Below, one piece after another: positions 7,353 through 13,652 of a stretch of 36,873 bases of DNA. The stretch comes from a virus. The notes under the pieces were generated by a model that worked only from the letters and a program-made list of their open reading frames with translations, searched no databases and was not told the origin of the DNA. Where the stretch lies: positions 1-36,873 of IMG/VR virus record IMGVR_UViG_3300007609_000047. One strand, given 5' to 3'. The position numbers were made by a program, and so were the translations under genes. The number at the start of each line of letters is the position of its first letter. Position 1 is the stretch's first letter.

Positions 7353-8042
7353 CTATTTATCGGTTAATACGTATTTGTTAACCTTGCCTACCGCCTGTGT
7401 ATTCTTTAGACGCATCATTAACAGTGTGCCTTCGTCTTCCACAAGCACATATCTTCTGTCCCAATTAATGTTAGAATATCTAAACCAACTTTCAACCGCA
7501 TCAGTAAACGTGACCCTTGGACGTTGCTCTTTCATCCACGCAATGAAACTTTCTTTGCTGTCTCTGTCTCTGACCTTGTGCGGAGTAAGATACACACGGT
7601 ATTGATATCTGCCCTTTGGCAGTTTTTCTACAACACACACTCTTTCTTCTAACAGTTCTACAGTTTCTGGCTTTGGTTCGTATCTATGAACTAAAATAGC
7701 TGAGAATTTATGACTCAGTGTGTGATACAGATTCTCATCGTTAGTATAGATGTCTATCCAACAGTTTTCTACTCTTGTGCCGTAGTCCTTTTTTTCTTCG
7801 TATCCTGAAAGAACGCCAAATAAATCTAAAACATCCTGCTTGTTATTCCAAAGATTGTATTTAGATCTGCTAAACAGCCATCTACCAGGTGCAGGTGCAG
7901 GTGCAGGACCAGCGAGAAACTCTAACACTTCTTTTTTAGAGAATATCCTGGTAGCACTAATACCAGGAATATCCAGTGTTACTTTGTACAACCATTTGTT
8001 ATAAAACTTTTTTGTGGTTGTTTTAGTTAACTTGTTCAGCAT
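7353..8042 (-). CDS. Conserved phage protein, unknown function
   Basis: 229 residues, soluble, rich in aromatic residues (NKWLYKVTLDI, SWFRYSNINW). Residues about 45-51 are a PAPAPAP linker encoded by an AGGTGC hexamer repeat. No catalytic motif recognised. It overlaps the end of clpA by 20 bp in another frame, so it is cotranscribed with the ClpA-deformylase-DnaJ block. Proteins of this kind occur in marine T4-like phages as far as I recall, but none has a known role. Confidence 0.6.
   Translation of the reverse strand: MLNKLTKTTTKKFYNKWLYKVTLDIPGISATRIFSKKEVLEFLAGPAPAPAPGRWLFSRSKYNLWNNKQDVLDLFGVLSGYEEKKDYGTRVENCWIDIYTNDENLYHTLSHKFSAILVHRYEPKPETVELLEERVCVVEKLPKGRYQYRVYLTPHKVRDRDSKESFIAWMKEQRPRVTFTDAVESWFRYSNINWDRRYVLVEDEGTLLMMRLKNTQAVGKVNKYVLTDK
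7354..7361 (-). promoter_or_regulatory. Late-promoter-like GATAAATA overlapping a stop codon
   Basis: Minus strand GATAAATAG contains the last Lys codon and TAG stop of the 229-residue gene and lies 4 bp before ATG 7349. If used like a T4 late promoter, transcription would begin at or next to the ATG. It may equally be chance at a Lys-stop junction. Confidence 0.25.
7887..7907. repeat. Short in-frame hexamer repeat encoding Ala-Pro
   Basis: Plus strand shows three and a half copies of AGGTGC inside the 229-residue gene, giving alternating Pro-Ala. Being a multiple of three, copy-number slippage would change linker length without a frameshift. Confidence 0.7.
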
Positions 8043-10314
8043 CGGTTTTTTCTTTCTTACGCAATTGTTTAAAAGTAAAATCTAATTCATCCTTCTTAAC
8101 GGTGATACGTACTTCGCCGCCGTCTACTAATTCGCCGAACAGTACTTCACGACTCAACGGGCTCTTGACTTCTTTATCAATTAAACGAGCCAGTGGACGA
8201 GCACCCATTTTAGGATCGTAACCTCGTTCAGCTAACCAATCTTTGGCTTTTGTGTCGATTTTGATTTGAATTTCTTTATCACCTAACTGATCATTCAGCT
8301 CACCGATAAATTTATCCACAATCGCACAAACGAATTCTTGACTGAGTTTGTTAAACTTAATTACAGAATCTAGTCTGTTACGGAACTCTGGCGGGAAGAA
8401 CTGTTTGATAGCTTTGTCGTCTTCCCCACTTCTTTCTAGGTCGCCAAATCCAATGGTGTTTCTTTCATTGTCTGCCGCACCTAGGTTACTGGTCATAATT
8501 AAAATACAGTTTCGACCATCTGCTTGTTTGCCGTTTGAACCTGTTACAAAACCATTGTCCATAAACTGTAGTAAAATATTACTCACGTCCGAGTGTGACT
8601 TTTCGATTTCGTCTAGCAACAACACACAATTAGGGTTTTCTTGTAGCTTGGTAATTAACTGTCCAGCATCTTCTTCATAACCTACATAACCCGGAGGTGC
8701 ACCGATTAACTTGGCAACACTGTGTTTTTCCTGATACTCTGACATATCAAAACGTACCAACGGCATACCCATCTTTTCACTTAGCTGTTTTGCCGTTTCG
8801 GTCTTACCACAGCCTGTTGGACCTAAGAATAAAAAACTACCCACAGGACGGTTCGGAGACTTCAGTCCACTCTGCGAAATAAAGATTTTGTCTAACAATA
8901 CATCTACAGCATCGTCTTGTCCAAACACAGAGGCTTTCATATTCTCTTCAAGCCCAGATAGGTTTTTGCTTTCTTTTTGTGCTACAGTTTCCAACGGCAT
9001 ATGAATCATTTTTGAAAGTTCGTACGTTACCTGCTCGATATCTACAATCTGTGTAATTCCTTCCTCTGCGGCATCAACGTCTCTGAGTTTGTAACGAGCA
9101 CTTGCACAGTCGATAATGTCAATAGCCTTGTCGGGCAGTTTCTTGTCTGCCATATACTTGACCGACAGTTTTACAGCCTGCTCAATCGCCGCATCAGTAA
9201 TGTTTACATTGTGATGCTCTTCGTAATATTTCTTAATGCCTTGGATAATTTCCACGGTGAGCTCTGCTGTAGGCTCATCGACGGTTACTCGTTGGAATCG
9301 ACGCATAAGAGCACGATCCTTTTCAAAATACTTGCGATACTCTTCCCAAGTAGTACTCGCAATAACTTTTAGATTGCCTTTGGTAAGTGCTGGCTTAAGC
9401 ATATTGCTGAGATCGTTGGCATTTTGTGTGCTTGATCCAGCACCACTCATCATATGAGCTTCGTCAATAAACAGAATTGTTTTGCCTTTTTTGTCTAATG
9501 CTTTTAGAACAGCCTTGATACGTTCTTCAAAATCTCCACGATACTTGGAACCTGCTACTAACGATCCGATGTCTAAACTGATAACTTCGTGGTCTTGAAT
9601 AAATTTAGGAGCATTACCTTCGTAAATGTTTCGAGCAAGACCTTCAGCGATAGCAGTTTTGCCCACGCCCGGATCTCCTACCATTAATACATTTGCTTTG
9701 TTACGGCGAGCAAGAACAAGCTGAATTTCTTCGATTTCTGTGTCTCTGCCGATAACAGGATCGATCTTGTCTTTGCGAGCCTTTTCAGATAAATTATCAC
9801 AGAATTGATCGATAATCTTGTCAGGCTTTCCTGAGCTGGTCATTTGTTCAATTGAGCCTTGTTCGTATTCTTCATCGCCTGTTAGAACTTCTCGAAAGTG
9901 TTCAACAAATTTTTCTTTTGTAATTCCGCCCTTTTGCAGAAAATAATACGCAAAACTGTTTTTCTCTCCAAGCACACTAATAATAACATCAGCTACTTCT
10001 AACTCGTTCCTGCCGCTGAATAGAACCTGTGTGAAACATCTATTAAGCACTCGCTCTACTGAATTAGTTTTTTCTGGTTTTGTAACAGGATCCTCAATTC
10101 GAATGTCGTTTAAATTGTTTTTGAGATAATGATCTAGATTTTGTTTAATGTAATCAACATCGGCACCGTATTCTTTTAGTGCTTCGTATGACTCATCATC
10201 TGCAAAAATAGAATAAACTAAATGTTCAATGGTGATATATTGATGCCCTAACTGTTTTGCATTGTCAACAGCGGAATCAAAAATTTCTTGCAGCTTTGCA
10301 CTGGGTTCAATCAT
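8023..10314 (-). CDS. clpA: ClpA-type AAA+ unfoldase with ClpP-docking loop
   Basis: 763 residues, full ClpA length with no ClpB-type middle domain. An N-terminal Clp_N repeat domain (1-145) is followed by AAA1 with Walker A GDPGVGKT (213-220), pore loop KYRG (257-260) and Walker B LFIDEAH (281-287). AAA2 has Walker A GPTGCGKT (498-505), pore loop GYVG (542-545), Walker B LLLDEIE (565-571) and Arg-finger region FRNRLD (644-649). An IGF tripeptide at 621-623 sits where ClpA/ClpX carry the loop that docks ClpP; ClpB lacks it. It would unfold substrates for the host ClpP, since no clpP is in this window. It ends 20 bp inside the next gene and starts 1 bp after the deformylase stop. Identity firm; target unknown. 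Confidence 0.95.
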   Translation of the reverse strand: MIEPSAKLQEIFDSAVDNAKQLGHQYITIEHLVYSIFADDESYEALKEYGADVDYIKQNLDHYLKNNLNDIRIEDPVTKPEKTNSVERVLNRCFTQVLFSGRNELEVADVIISVLGEKNSFAYYFLQKGGITKEKFVEHFREVLTGDEEYEQGSIEQMTSSGKPDKIIDQFCDNLSEKARKDKIDPVIGRDTEIEEIQLVLARRNKANVLMVGDPGVGKTAIAEGLARNIYEGNAPKFIQDHEVISLDIGSLVAGSKYRGDFEERIKAVLKALDKKGKTILFIDEAHMMSGAGSSTQNANDLSNMLKPALTKGNLKVIASTTWEEYRKYFEKDRALMRRFQRVTVDEPTAELTVEIIQGIKKYYEEHHNVNITDAAIEQAVKLSVKYMADKKLPDKAIDIIDCASARYKLRDVDAAEEGITQIVDIEQVTYELSKMIHMPLETVAQKESKNLSGLEENMKASVFGQDDAVDVLLDKIFISQSGLKSPNRPVGSFLFLGPTGCGKTETAKQLSEKMGMPLVRFDMSEYQEKHSVAKLIGAPPGYVGYEEDAGQLITKLQENPNCVLLLDEIEKSHSDVSNILLQFMDNGFVTGSNGKQADGRNCILIMTSNLGAADNERNTIGFGDLERSGEDDKAIKQFFPPEFRNRLDSVIKFNKLSQEFVCAIVDKFIGELNDQLGDKEIQIKIDTKAKDWLAERGYDPKMGARPLARLIDKEVKSPLSREVLFGELVDGGEVRITVKKDELDFTFKQLRKKEKTDAEQVN

Positions 10315-10315
10315 G

Positions 10316-10810
10316 TTATTTCTTTTTCCTTAGTTTCTTCATAGCTAATTTTAACTTCAATGGGGATACAATGTCAACAAAACATACACCATTTAGGTGA
10401 TCTAATTCGTGTTGAAAACATTTTGAAAGATAGCCGTCAATTTTGACTTCTCGATAATCGCCCTTGGCATCTTGATATCCAGCAACAACCCAACTAGGTC
10501 TTTTAATGTGTAGATATAATCCGGGATAACTTAAACATCCTTCTTGGTCTAAAACCATTTCTTCGCTGGACTCAATGATGGCTGGATTAAACAGAGCAAA
10601 TGGTTTTGGAAATCCTGGAATGTCTCTAGCACCCATTGTAAACACACGTTTGGTTATTCCAATTTGGTTCGCCGCTAACCCGATGCCTCTGTTGTTTAAC
10701 ATAAATTGGCACATTTCGTGCTCTAATTGTTCAGAATCTTGATCCAACCCGAAATCCCACGGAGTGCTAGATTGGGTTAAACTTTCGTGAGGTCCTAGTT
10801 TAAATTCCAT
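10316..10810 (-). CDS. def: Peptide deformylase
   Basis: 164 residues. All three metal-site motifs are intact: GIGLAANQIG (42-51), EGCLSYPG (90-97, metal ligand C92) and QHELDHLNG (133-141, ligands H134 and H138, catalytic E135). It removes the formyl group from N-terminal fMet of nascent proteins. Phage versions are usually shorter at the C-terminus than bacterial ones; this one has a short Lys-rich tail. It overlaps dnaJ by 11 bp and abuts clpA, forming a chaperone/processing block. Marine phages often carry deformylase, in cyanophages thought to favour turnover of photosystem proteins; here the host is probably not photosynthetic. Confidence 0.95.
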   Translation of the reverse strand: MEFKLGPHESLTQSSTPWDFGLDQDSEQLEHEMCQFMLNNRGIGLAANQIGITKRVFTMGARDIPGFPKPFALFNPAIIESSEEMVLDQEGCLSYPGLYLHIKRPSWVVAGYQDAKGDYREVKIDGYLSKCFQHELDHLNGVCFVDIVSPLKLKLAMKKLRKKK

Positions 10811-11612
10811 GTTTAATTTCCTTGATTTTTTCTATCTGTTCGGCTGACAGATTTTTAGGTATTTCAACCTTTATTTTAACATGAAGATTGCCTTTTTTCC
10901 TAGATCTCATATCGGGTAATCCTTCATTCTTACAACTTAAAAGAGTATTCGGTTGAACTCCTTTAGGAATTGTAATATTAAGATTTTTGCCTTCTAGAGT
11001 TTTTATATCTATAGAACCGCCAATCATAGCTGTGAACGCATCAACTTTTACTTCAGTTTCTATATTGCTTCCTTTTCTAATAAATCTACTATGAGGAAGT
11101 ACAATAATGTTTAGCATTAAATCCCCAGGAGGAAGTTGCCGTATAGCTTGCTCGCCCATACCTTGATATCTAATACTTTGGCCGTGTTCGATTCCTGGAG
11201 GAACACTTACATTTACTAAATTCTTTTTCCCGTCAGGCATAATTATCTCTGCATTTATGTCCTTGCCTCTAAGGACATCTTCTAGGGTAATTTCTATACC
11301 TACATTTATTGTTTTATTTTTACGTGCCTGCCCTTGAAAACCAAATCCAAAATCATGAAAAGGGTCGCCAAAATGAAATTCAAACGGTCCTTGACGATAA
11401 CCTCCGCCTTGCTGGTTAGGATCAGCACCCATGTCGTACATTTGTTTTTTCTGAGGATCAGTCAGTATATCATAAGCTGATTGTATCTCTGCAAATTTAC
11501 GGTCGTCACCTCCGCGATCGGGGTGATGCTTCATCGCTAGTTTGCGATAAGCTTTTTTAATTTCATCTGGAGTGGCGTTTTGAGAAACGCCTAAGGTGCT
11601 GTAATAGTCCAT
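10800..11612 (-). CDS. dnaJ: DnaJ/CbpA-type J-domain co-chaperone
   Basis: 270 residues. The J-domain spans 1-65 with the Hsp70-stimulating HPD at 30-32. A Gly/Phe-rich linker (about 68-95, GFGFQGQ) follows, then two substrate-binding beta-domains (IEITLEDVLRGKDI; VPPGIEHGQSIRYQGMGEQ). There is no CxxCxGxG zinc finger, so it is the class II (CbpA/DnaJ-B) type. It would deliver unfolded proteins to host DnaK. Full length for a compact class II member. The start at ATG 11612 is the only one giving an intact J-domain. An unusual inverted repeat encloses the start codon (11591-11633), hinting at translational control. First gene of the dnaJ-def-clpA block. Confidence 0.93.
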   Translation of the reverse strand: MDYYSTLGVSQNATPDEIKKAYRKLAMKHHPDRGGDDRKFAEIQSAYDILTDPQKKQMYDMGADPNQQGGGYRQGPFEFHFGDPFHDFGFGFQGQARKNKTINVGIEITLEDVLRGKDINAEIIMPDGKKNLVNVSVPPGIEHGQSIRYQGMGEQAIRQLPPGDLMLNIIVLPHSRFIRKGSNIETEVKVDAFTAMIGGSIDIKTLEGKNLNITIPKGVQPNTLLSCKNEGLPDMRSRKKGNLHVKIKVEIPKNLSAEQIEKIKEIKHGI

Positions 11613-11652: not shown

Positions 11653-12006
11653 TTACTTAGACGGTGTGTCTTTTTTGCCTTTCTGTGCAATAGCATCAGC
11701 ACCAAAGAACGCCGAAACTAATACAGCAATTGACGCAAAGTATGTTGGCGCAATGTCAGCAATAAGTTGAGCGGCCGTATCTAGCCCGAATGCTGATGTT
11801 AGGAAAATACCAATTGGGTAAAGTAATAGTCCGAACAGTGCAAACCATGCCATTTTACGAATAGCATCGCGTTGTGCATCTGCATCTTCTAGTTCCTTAC
11901 GCTTGAATTCCAAGTGCATCTCCATTTCTTCTTTAGAGATATGTCCGTCGCCGTTTGCGTCCATACCTTCAACGCATTCTGCGTCAATAGTTTTAGTATC
12001 TGCCAT
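11653..12006 (-). CDS. EF-hand membrane protein, holin candidate
   Basis: 117 residues. A canonical EF-hand loop DANGDGHISKEE (16-27, with D16, N18, D20, S24 and E27 at coordinating positions) precedes a charged helix (28-48) and two hydrophobic segments (about 50-72 and 82-104), with a Lys-rich tail. The topology would place the calcium-binding N-terminus in the cytoplasm or in the periplasm; this cannot be told from sequence. It lies at the end of the lysis region and has its own promoter-like box and a good GAGGAG ribosome site. Holin is a plausible role from size, two membrane segments and neighbours, but the EF-hand is not typical of holins. Confidence 0.7.
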   Translation of the reverse strand: MADTKTIDAECVEGMDANGDGHISKEEMEMHLEFKRKELEDADAQRDAIRKMAWFALFGLLLYPIGIFLTSAFGLDTAAQLIADIAPTYFASIAVLVSAFFGADAIAQKGKKDTPSK

Positions 12007-12035
12007 TATAAATCGCTCCTCTTCAATGGTATATG

Positions 12036-12043
12036 TATTTATT
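12036..12043 (-). promoter_or_regulatory. Putative late promoter for the EF-hand membrane protein
   Basis: Minus strand AATAAATA, 29 bp before ATG 12006 and overlapping the stop codon of the 91-residue gene. A GAGGAG ribosome site follows about 10 bases before the ATG, giving a normal short leader. Confidence 0.4.
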
Positions 12044-12314
12044 TTTCTAACTTAGCAATCCGAGCTTCTAACTCGTCTATTTTTTTAGTAACATGTGGAT
12101 ACTTTTTACGCCAAGCATCCGTTGGTTGTTCTAACCAAGCCCAGCCATATCTTTCAACCAAGAAGTCGAGATATTGATCTACTTTGCCGTAGAACCAAAT
12201 ACCTGCTCTTGTGTCTTTGAGATATGCTAGTGCAATAGCACCAATGATAGAACCGCCAATAGCAGTCCAAATCCATAGTGTATCGCTGAACATTCTGTCA
12301 ATCATTTCTAACAT
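12039..12314 (-). CDS. Small single-span membrane protein, possible lysis protein
   Basis: 91 residues. One membrane segment near residues 12-32 (LWIWTAIGGSIIGAIALAYL), then an aromatic amphipathic stretch (IWFYGKVDQYLDFLVERYGW) and a C-terminal coiled coil (KKIDELEARIAKLEK). It lies between the spanin pair and the EF-hand membrane protein, has its own late-type box, and could be the holin or antiholin. No family recognised. Confidence 0.65.
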   Translation of the reverse strand: MLEMIDRMFSDTLWIWTAIGGSIIGAIALAYLKDTRAGIWFYGKVDQYLDFLVERYGWAWLEQPTDAWRKKYPHVTKKIDELEARIAKLEK

Positions 12315-12336: not shown

Positions 12337-12344
12337 TATTTATT
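12337..12344 (-). promoter_or_regulatory. Putative late promoter for the 91-residue membrane protein
   Basis: Minus strand AATAAATA, 22 bp upstream of ATG 12314, overlapping the stop codon of the o-spanin gene. GAGGG about 8 bases before the ATG could serve as ribosome site. Confidence 0.4.
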
Positions 12345-12762
12345 GGTTAAGTGGAGTTTCTGAGACCACAGTATCGTCTGCATTGGGATCCACAGCATCT
12401 TCGTAGTATACAATGATCTGTGTTTGTTGATTTATAAATCTACGCATCTCTGCAATGTTAAGCGCAAGGTTTTCATAGTCTTTCATTGATAGCGCGACAA
12501 AGGCAACTTCACCATGACGTTCTTTGAACTCCGCAAGGAAGTCGTCTAGTATACGTTCGTTAACAACATACACTCTTACATCATTGAGCTGTACTGGCTT
12601 CGGACGGCTCACTGTCGGTACTTGCGTCTTCTCCACTTTGGTTACTACTTTGATCTCCGGCTCTGGGCTGGGTATCAGACTGCAACCAGTTAGGTAAAGG
12701 GCGGTTAGCATCGCCGCCAGTATCTTCAATGATGCCGCGCCATAGTTTTGCTGTAGCGCCAT
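12340..12762 (-). CDS. Outer-membrane spanin lipoprotein (Rz1-like)
   Basis: 140 residues. A signal peptide with hydrophobic core (LKILAAMLTALYL) ends in the lipobox L-T-G-C, giving lipidated C27. Ser28 at position +2 favours outer-membrane sorting. Pro-rich segments follow (IPSPEPE, RPKPVQ), as is usual in Rz1 proteins, though at about 114 mature residues it is longer than lambda Rz1. The first 182 bp lie inside the 3' end of the i-spanin gene in another frame, the classic overlapping spanin layout. Together with the i-spanin it would join inner and outer membranes and fuse them at the last lysis step. Start ATG 12762 gives the complete signal peptide. Confidence 0.85.
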   Translation of the reverse strand: MALQQNYGAASLKILAAMLTALYLTGCSLIPSPEPEIKVVTKVEKTQVPTVSRPKPVQLNDVRVYVVNERILDDFLAEFKERHGEVAFVALSMKDYENLALNIAEMRRFINQQTQIIVYYEDAVDPNADDTVVSETPLNQ

Positions 12763-13087
12763 TCATCTTCCCTTCTAAGGTTTCTGCATCTCGTAATGCA
12801 TCTTGTACAAGATCTAATCTATTCAATTTGCTTTGTAGTTCGTCGCCATATGCTTCTGCGGCTTGTAGATCTGCTTGCAATTGTTGATTTAGTTCTTGAA
12901 ATTTCGCCATGTCTTGTTGAAGCATTTCTATGCTTGCTTCTGATATTTCAACGGCTGTTTCTAGTTTTGCGTTATTCTCACGCAGTGTAGCGATTGTTGC
13001 TTGTGTAGTATCATAATAGTACTTGGCACCATATGCAAAGGTGCCAAGCACACCTACTATAATTAATATAGCATATATCTTGAGCAT
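12581..13087 (-). CDS. Inner-membrane spanin (Rz-like)
   Basis: 168 residues. The N-terminal membrane anchor (IYAILIIVGVLGTFAYGAKY) is followed by a long periplasmic coiled coil (about 28-110, many Gln/Glu/Leu heptads), then a Pro/Ser/Asp-rich tail. This is the standard i-spanin plan. The 3' third overlaps the o-spanin signal and Pro-rich region in another frame. Its ATG overlaps the stop of the 33-residue microprotein by one base (TAATG), so the lysis genes are translationally coupled. Confidence 0.85.
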   Translation of the reverse strand: MLKIYAILIIVGVLGTFAYGAKYYYDTTQATIATLRENNAKLETAVEISEASIEMLQQDMAKFQELNQQLQADLQAAEAYGDELQSKLNRLDLVQDALRDAETLEGKMNGATAKLWRGIIEDTGGDANRPLPNWLQSDTQPRAGDQSSNQSGEDASTDSEPSEASTAQ

Positions 13088-13188
13088 TACTTTTTCAGTC
13101 GTTTTACAAAGTCGATAATGCCGTCAAGTTTCCAACGGATAACCCAACCTAGGCCAAACCCAACAATGAATCCTAATGTCATAAACAT
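13087..13188 (-). CDS. 33-residue membrane microprotein in the lysis operon
   Basis: Reading frame ATG 13188 to TAA, 33 residues: a glycine-rich hydrophobic span (MTLGFIVGFGLGWVIRW) and a basic amphipathic tail ending VKRLKK. It is joined at both ends by TAATG one-base overlaps, to the endolysin stop and to the i-spanin start, so it fills the gap exactly. This exact fit argues for a real gene. Possible roles: pinholin/antiholin-like peptide or spanin regulator. An alternative ATG at 13182 would give 31 residues. Confidence 0.6.
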   Translation of the reverse strand: MFMTLGFIVGFGLGWVIRWKLDGIIDFVKRLKK

Positions 13189-13652
13189 TATGCATTGATC
13201 CCCACTGAGTATTCAGTCTTGCCGTCGATGCGAGTTGCTGTCAAGCACTCACCGCGATTGTCGCCGTCTGCAAGATATGAAACGTGTACCCAACCTGAAT
13301 CAGGGATGCCTGGAGTATAAAACTCGAGGATCAGTTGATCGAATTCTAGGTTGTCACGAATCCATTCTGCAAGCTCTGCATTTGGCACACCCGGTACTTC
13401 AATGTCAGCCGCTTCACCTTTGCAATGCTGTGAACGTGAACTGCCGCCTACCGCTTCGTTAAGTTCTGGCGAACGATAGCCACTGTTGAGCACAGTAGGA
13501 CCAAAATGATCTCTTACCTTTTGCACAACATTTTCAAACAGTGCAACTGCGGCATCTAGGTGCTCGCCTTGTGGTGTGTTGTCAATACCCTTTCTTTCTG
13601 CTGTTTGGCTCTTTGTAAACTCAGCCATTGTGAAATTTTCTGATAAACGCAT
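13188..13652 (-). CDS. Endolysin, M15-type peptidoglycan peptidase
   Basis: 154 residues, one peptidase M15 (VanY/Peptidase_M15_3-like) domain. The zinc triad is H76 (SRSQH), D83 (EAADIEV) and H123 (GWVHVSY), with the family motif NSGYRSPELN (56-65) and a probable catalytic Glu near 110 (LILEFY). The family cuts D-Ala or L-Ala-D-Glu bonds in peptidoglycan. No signal peptide, so it needs a holin to reach the cell wall. Its ATG overlaps the upstream stop as TAATG, and AGGAGG inside the last codons of the upstream gene is an excellent ribosome site. Next to spanins and small membrane proteins, it completes a lysis cassette. Confidence 0.92.
   Translation of the reverse strand: MRLSENFTMAEFTKSQTAERKGIDNTPQGEHLDAAVALFENVVQKVRDHFGPTVLNSGYRSPELNEAVGGSSRSQHCKGEAADIEVPGVPNAELAEWIRDNLEFDQLILEFYTPGIPDSGWVHVSYLADGDNRGECLTATRIDGKTEYSVGINA

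Follow-up and report, generated by a model that had tools for sequence, protein, structure and literature searches.

A phage membrane hairpin with a strictly conserved EF-hand loop shares its gene positions with holins and may be controlled by calcium

Holins set the burst time of the phage-infected cell, and the nature of their trigger has long been debated. The window analysed here, an IMG/VR viral fragment of 36.9 kb (36,873 nucleotides, the whole stretch of DNA under study) to which no host is assigned, contains a short gene, hereafter the EF gene, whose product joins a calcium loop to two membrane spans. The initial annotation suggested that this protein could be a calcium-gated holin or lysis timer, which would be new, and that membrane damage could act as the trigger, marine calcium being high outside the cell and low inside. 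In seawater, Ca2+ stands at about 10 mM outside the cell and is sub-micromolar inside. The locus thus raises the questions of whether the EF protein belongs to the lysis machinery and whether calcium has a part in its function.

The architecture claimed for the protein, in which 117 residues hold a canonical EF-hand loop, then a charged helix and then two membrane spans, is confirmed by the agreement of the ORF, the motif pattern, hydropathy and an AlphaFold2 model (Table 1). D, N or S ligands occupy loop positions 1, 3, 5 and 9, together with Gly at position 6, a hydrophobic residue at position 8 and Glu/Asp at position 12. The PROSITE EF-hand pattern has a single match among the 43 window ORFs of at least 100 aa, where shuffles expect 0.12, and a stricter loop pattern is observed once against 0.0 expected. 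The window protein falls short of the curated Pfam EF-hand cut-off (EF-hand_5, E 6.8e-5, 22.6 vs 25.9 bits), and a profile of its family recovers calmodulins and EhCaBP1 from the PDB over residues 10–51 (best E 6e-8). With the EF-hand proteins represented by PF13202, PF00036, EhCaBP1 and calmodulin it shares the canonical 12-residue loop, all of its ligands and the helix that comes after it, but it differs from them in having a single loop, a first helix that is short or missing in the model, and a membrane hairpin fused to this module. An unpaired EF loop that lacks a clear first helix is often a weak Ca2+ binder. The loop of the EF protein would nonetheless very likely bind Ca2+.

Table 1. 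Features of the EF gene and of its neighbours in the window
Feature	Position	Strand	Evidence
Clp-type AAA+ ATPase	8023..10314	(-)	Walker motifs; named from sequence, not library scan
Peptide deformylase, phrog_2890	10316..10810	(-)	PHROGs profile
DnaJ-like protein, far border of the EF slot	10800..11612	(-)	
EF-hand hairpin membrane protein, 117 aa	11653..12006	(-)	ATG start
Membrane span 2, about residues 85-105, DIAPTYF at its start, Lys-rich tail after	11692..11754	(-)	hydropathy, AlphaFold2, charges
Membrane span 1, about residues 53-72	11791..11850	(-)	hydropathy, AlphaFold2
Charged helix, residues 28-52, continuous with span 1 in the model	11851..11925	(-)	AlphaFold2
EF-hand loop DANGDGHISKEE, residues 16-27	11926..11961	(-)	sequence and conservation
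Shine-Dalgarno GAGGAG of the EF gene	12016..12021	(-)	sequence
TM91, of 91 aa, with a single N-terminal membrane span and a coiled coil	12039..12314	(-)	profile scan, hydropathy
o-spanin, phrog_812, E 1.2e-14, lipobox LTGC	12340..12762	(-)	PHROGs profile
i-spanin, phrog_739, E 4e-7	12581..13087	(-)	PHROGs profile
Endolysin, M15 peptidase, PF08291, phrog_894	13188..13652	(-)	profiles

The AlphaFold2 model, built with 63 relatives (mean pLDDT 76.5, pTM 0.40), consists of the loop and two helices, residues 25–72 and 76–112, that form a hairpin, the first helix running from the loop into the membrane. Hydropathy puts the two hydrophobic segments at about residues 55–73 and 89–107, and the spans are called from it plus this one model. 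A PDB fold search with the model gave nothing informative (VIA-align top Z 5.1, Vipp1, which is noise level for long helices), and a BFVD search returned one match, an unnamed viral protein of 84 aa (E 3e-5). An MCU-like uniporter (PF04678) was rejected, as the DIAPTYF stretch resembles DIMEPVTYF but the filter Glu is missing, there is no WDxxEP and PF04678 itself is unmatched.

At least 594 relatives of the EF protein were found by an IMG/VR scan. Cultured carriers comprise Pelagibacter phage HTVC008M (two accessions), four Melnitz isolates, Roseobacter phages CRP-1, CRP-9, CRP-207, CRP-345 and CRP-810, and Limnohabitans phage DC31, and the proteins of these marine and freshwater phages are 29–50% identical to that of the window, 29% being also the lowest identity among relatives. 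The canonical loop with all Ca2+ ligands is kept in each of the 157 unique relatives collected, four seemingly loop-less ones being start-codon artefacts. Across 36 members of less than 80% mutual identity, E40 and D47 of the charged helix are invariant; in the loop, D1, G6 and E12 are invariant, and every member has an oxygen-bearing residue at positions 3 (D/N), 5 (D/N) and 9 (S/T/D). With this pattern as a whole, the loop is not a chance resemblance. Every annotated copy that was opened is labelled a hypothetical protein. The family has no PHROGs entry of known function, it matches no holin family in Pfam at the curated cut-off, and our literature search found nothing on calcium-gated holins or on this hairpin family. 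The diverged members of CRP-1 and CRP-9 match phrog_27150, of unknown function (E 9e-12 and 5e-11, respectively), whereas the window protein does so weakly (E 0.02). A single profile scan of 84,980 genomes gave nine matches, all on metagenome-bin contigs and possibly binned phage; the family is unannotated and restricted to phages.

The spanins and endolysin that had been named as neighbours of the gene were likewise identified by profile, and the order on the minus strand of the window is M15 endolysin, overlapping i-spanin and o-spanin, TM91, EF, DnaJ, peptide deformylase and Clp-type ATPase. The two spanin genes use different reading frames where they overlap, the o-spanin gene covering the 3' portion of that for the i-spanin (window 12340–13087). 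TM91 (12039–12314) has a weak XhlA match (E 0.0033) and keeps its position regardless of the hairpin in the adjoining slot, and the dnaJ–pdf–clp block (window 8023–11612; L420–L544) is conserved beside lysis genes in many phage contigs of marine and freshwater origin. Across the family, the EF gene is found at several types of locus, namely between gp51 and the tape measure gene of T4-like phages, in the spanin–TM91–EF–dnaJ order of the window, in a phoH/deoxyribonucleotidase/glycosyltransferase block, and in small phages near the terminase. A recognised lysis gene lies within 3 kb in only 16 of 82 non-redundant loci. Since most relatives are therefore not near lysis genes, the argument from location is weak, and closeness to spanins and endolysin was dropped as proof of a lysis role; what backs this part of the initial annotation is the exchange of the EF gene with PF11351 holins described below. 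Exact T4-type late promoters (TATAAATA) stand within 80 bp upstream of 12 of 86 non-redundant EF starts, where about one is expected from mononucleotide shuffles, an approximate figure, and such promoters would fit the status of a late gene.

In three unrelated neighbourhoods, the EF protein trades places with the curated Pfam holin family GTA_holin_3TM (PF11351) or with a protein here called W (phrog_10198). Firstly, in the hub slot, gp51–X–tape measure, X is EF in HTVC008M and Melnitz and W in Mosig. Among 79 such loci, fetched by hub proteins alone and including nine too short to judge, the position is filled by EF in 12, by W in 23 and by a PF11351-like protein in 4, with mostly nothing elsewhere, so that the identified fillers are EF, W or PF11351-like and the slot is empty in cyanophage-like relatives. 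The possibility of a tail-hub component, which this position would allow, was rejected, given that the same protein is found beside endolysins elsewhere and that the slot also holds PF11351-like proteins. Secondly, in the slot of the window, spanins–(TM91)–X–dnaJ–pdf–clp, EF is found in the window itself, in L544 and in L493 (two spanin-like genes, EF, dnaJ), W in L497, and PF11351 in L449 (TM91, PF11351 holin, dnaJ) and L482 (i-spanin, o-spanin, PF11351 holin, small ORF, dnaJ), gene orders being as given; L497, with i-spanin, o-spanin, TM91, W, dnaJ, pdf and clp, is an exact one-gene swap relative to the window. TM91 occurs in this neighbourhood with any of the three, EF, W or PF11351. Thirdly, beside the M15 endolysin, the end of the EF gene is the start of the endolysin in CRP-1 and CRP-9, and in CRP-345 the EF gene precedes a u-spanin and the endolysin, while the related CRP-13 has W and the small membrane protein phrog_2524 upstream of the endolysin, and CRP-823 and ctQRb9 have a phrog_3427 (PF11351-type) holin directly before a homologous endolysin. 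The curated PF11351 cut-off is exceeded in L385, L449, L450, L467 and L482, with L366 just under it; L375 and L386 were assigned as PF11351-like by eye.

The interchange with PF11351 holins in three slots provides the lysis role with support that is independent of gene proximity. The exchange shows that the positions are equal and makes an equal function likely, and by position the EF protein probably belongs to the holin class, as a holin or as the partner of one. The interpretation offered initially is thus partly supported and on firmer footing than before. A function outside lysis, such as superinfection exclusion, calcium homeostasis or the anchoring of tail or hub assembly to the membrane, would be conceivable if these slots merely tolerated small membrane genes, and many relatives do adjoin gp51/tape measure or the phoH/deoxyribonucleotidase/glycosyltransferase block, away from lysis genes. 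However, the identity of the hub-slot fillers, the empty slot of cyanophage-like relatives, the exchange of the same families within lysis cassettes, and the position beside the endolysin in CRP podoviruses, where an assembly factor is not expected, make this explanation quite improbable.

The families with which a holin-class EF protein can be compared resemble it to different degrees. GTA_holin_3TM (PF11351/phrog_3427) is a small late inner-membrane helical protein that occupies the same three slots in related phages, but its model has three spans, it lacks the EF loop and its sequence shows no similarity to EF proteins that could be detected, PF11351 having no match at E ≤0.1 in 63 EF members. 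Phage_holin_3_6 (PF07332, holin superfamily III) gives a weak match across the hairpin of diverged members (E 0.0019 for L493 and 0.024 for CRP-9), with a best score of 18.7 bits vs a curated cut-off of 28.4 bits. In a likeness confined to topology, we take the EF protein to resemble class II holins such as S21 of lambdoid phage 21, which would share its pair of spans and the predicted cytoplasmic location of both termini; both the two-helix hairpin, which hydropathy and AlphaFold2 indicate, and the interchange with PF11351 in three holin slots would be expected of that class, whereas the long charged helix and the Ca2+ loop set the EF protein apart from it. Against a holin, conservation of the hairpin is unusually high for a protein of this class. 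HTVC008M has endolysins and an inferred spanin pair and lacks an annotated holin, and the paper on Melnitz proposes curli pores as pinholin analogues, the word holin being absent from its text (PMC9004378). The EF protein is a holin candidate for these T4-like phages of SAR11 and OM43.

How often the exchanging families meet in one locus bears on whether the EF protein acts as the holin or beside it. EF and W are found together in none of 545 loci, W and PF11351 in 11, and EF and PF11351 in two (CRP-810 and L243), where they directly adjoin; these loci were drawn from searches with selected queries on the basis of similarity, are partly redundant and mostly span a few kb, and the exclusivity is a local one. 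For HTVC008M and Melnitz, the exclusivity of EF and W is genome-wide as far as tblastn reaches. Since a PF11351 holin is the direct neighbour of EF in CRP-810 and L243, as it is of W in 11 loci, the EF protein may be a partner and not the holin. It could then be an antiholin or a second holin-like protein that tunes a separate holin, in analogy to LysF1a and LysF1b, two holin-like proteins that act as a pair in F1 mycobacteriophages (PMC13056207), and the entry of Ca2+ would release or impose the brake. Small membrane proteins, TM91 and XhlA-like ones among them, lie close by in several contexts, which is consistent with such an arrangement. Nevertheless, EF substitutes for PF11351 one for one in the hub and dnaJ slots, and the lysis cassettes of CRP-1, CRP-9 and CRP-345 are without another clear holin, a 56-aa two-span protein being found elsewhere in CRP-345, so that a partner of this kind is unlikely.

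Regarding calcium, proteins without the loop occupy the same positions. A hairpin homologue lacking the EF module (26 bits) lies between an XhlA-like gene and Rz in Limnohabitans phage DC33 (L252), and in DC31 the EF form sits upstream of Rz, where DC33 has the EF-less homologue; a hairpin-only search of IMG/VR found no EF-less close relatives. The DC33 hairpin ORF is unannotated (L252:1841–2158), and the record is classed in the Inoviridae although its gene set, of 39 kb, is like that of a tailed phage and includes Rz and an M15 endolysin. Since neither the phrog_10198 and PF11351 proteins that are interchangeable with the EF protein nor the EF-less homologue have the loop, calcium cannot be essential to the basic function and would at most add a layer of control. 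Where the loop occurs, its strict retention shows that this module is of importance.

The side of the membrane on which the loop lies can be approached through the distribution of charges. The balance of K+R against D+E is 0.5/2.1 in the inter-helix loop, 3.1/0.5 in the C-terminal tail and 5.1/4.8, that is, balanced, in the N-terminal flank. The acidic turn and the Lys-rich tail favour an N-in/C-in topology, and since the charges thus place the turn outside and the tail inside, the EF loop probably faces the cytoplasm, the side with little Ca2+ before a leak, which a calcium trigger would demand. A single cytoplasmic loop, probably of low affinity, would be suited to report a leaking membrane with 10 mM Ca2+ outside. 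The preferred reading as a whole, that of a holin-class hairpin with a cytoplasmic EF loop and Ca2+ control of triggering, is given a probability of roughly 0.4. Following this reading, the hairpin would insert into the inner membrane with both ends in the cytoplasm and oligomerise late in infection, the oligomer either forming the lesion that frees the endolysin or setting the timing together with another holin. The EF loop would stay empty until the membrane starts leaking; in turn, entering Ca2+ would fill the loop and pair or reorder the N-terminal helices, and this filling would make triggering abrupt. Once the other steps are granted, the odds of Ca2+ control are about even, and taken by itself a triggering role for calcium is plausible, if short of an even chance. 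The fullest version of the proposal, in which Ca2+ entry triggers or sharpens lysis through the EF-hand fused to the hairpin, making this the first family of calcium-gated holins, one that would have changed places with ordinary holins and so spread over unrelated phages of marine and fresh waters, is doubtful as a complete account.

The slot-exchange evidence would equally suit a holin-class protein whose EF loop is structural, with constitutively bound Ca2+ or Mg2+ stabilising the oligomer and no sensing involved, the N-terminus being perhaps periplasmic and saturated in seawater. Where W or PF11351 fills the slot, the phage manages without the loop, and the balanced charges of the N-flank make the topology less than certain. 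However, the Lys-rich tail and the acidic turn favour N-in/C-in, and the fact that unrelated phages retain the loop so strictly points to more than a brace that could be replaced, for which reasons this explanation is not very likely. The EF family is widespread, occupies holin slots and conserves its calcium loop strictly, and it thereby makes an ionic trigger open to direct test.

The same comparison of slots also points to W as a holin-class family. W (phrog_10198, catalogued as of unknown function) is a two-helix hairpin with the pattern WKxxPR...WFMxLPDP..., and its gene often touches a lysozyme or endolysin gene; in HMO-2011 and CRP-406, for example, it abuts or overlaps the lysozyme gene. 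EF and W hairpins are of similar size, occupy common slots and are mutually exclusive, but W has no EF loop and an hhalign comparison of the two is not significant (probability 10.9%). W would be a probable second unannotated family of the holin class. Its members number in the hundreds among marine phage contigs and also occur in HMO-2011, Mosig, KVP40 and Vibrio T5-like phages (L253:4893–5165, L247:1224–1469, L261–L340). A membrane-anchored protein that PHROGs lists as a tail assembly chaperone, phrog_1158, adjoins spanins and EF or W genes (L140:2410–2994, L273:2348–2938, HTVC008M 116428–117033) and may be a member of the lysis module. Moreover, an N-terminal leader MPRKK.EDL is common to the EF proteins of L544 and L487 and the W proteins of L490 and L497, as if the hairpin had been swapped inside the gene.
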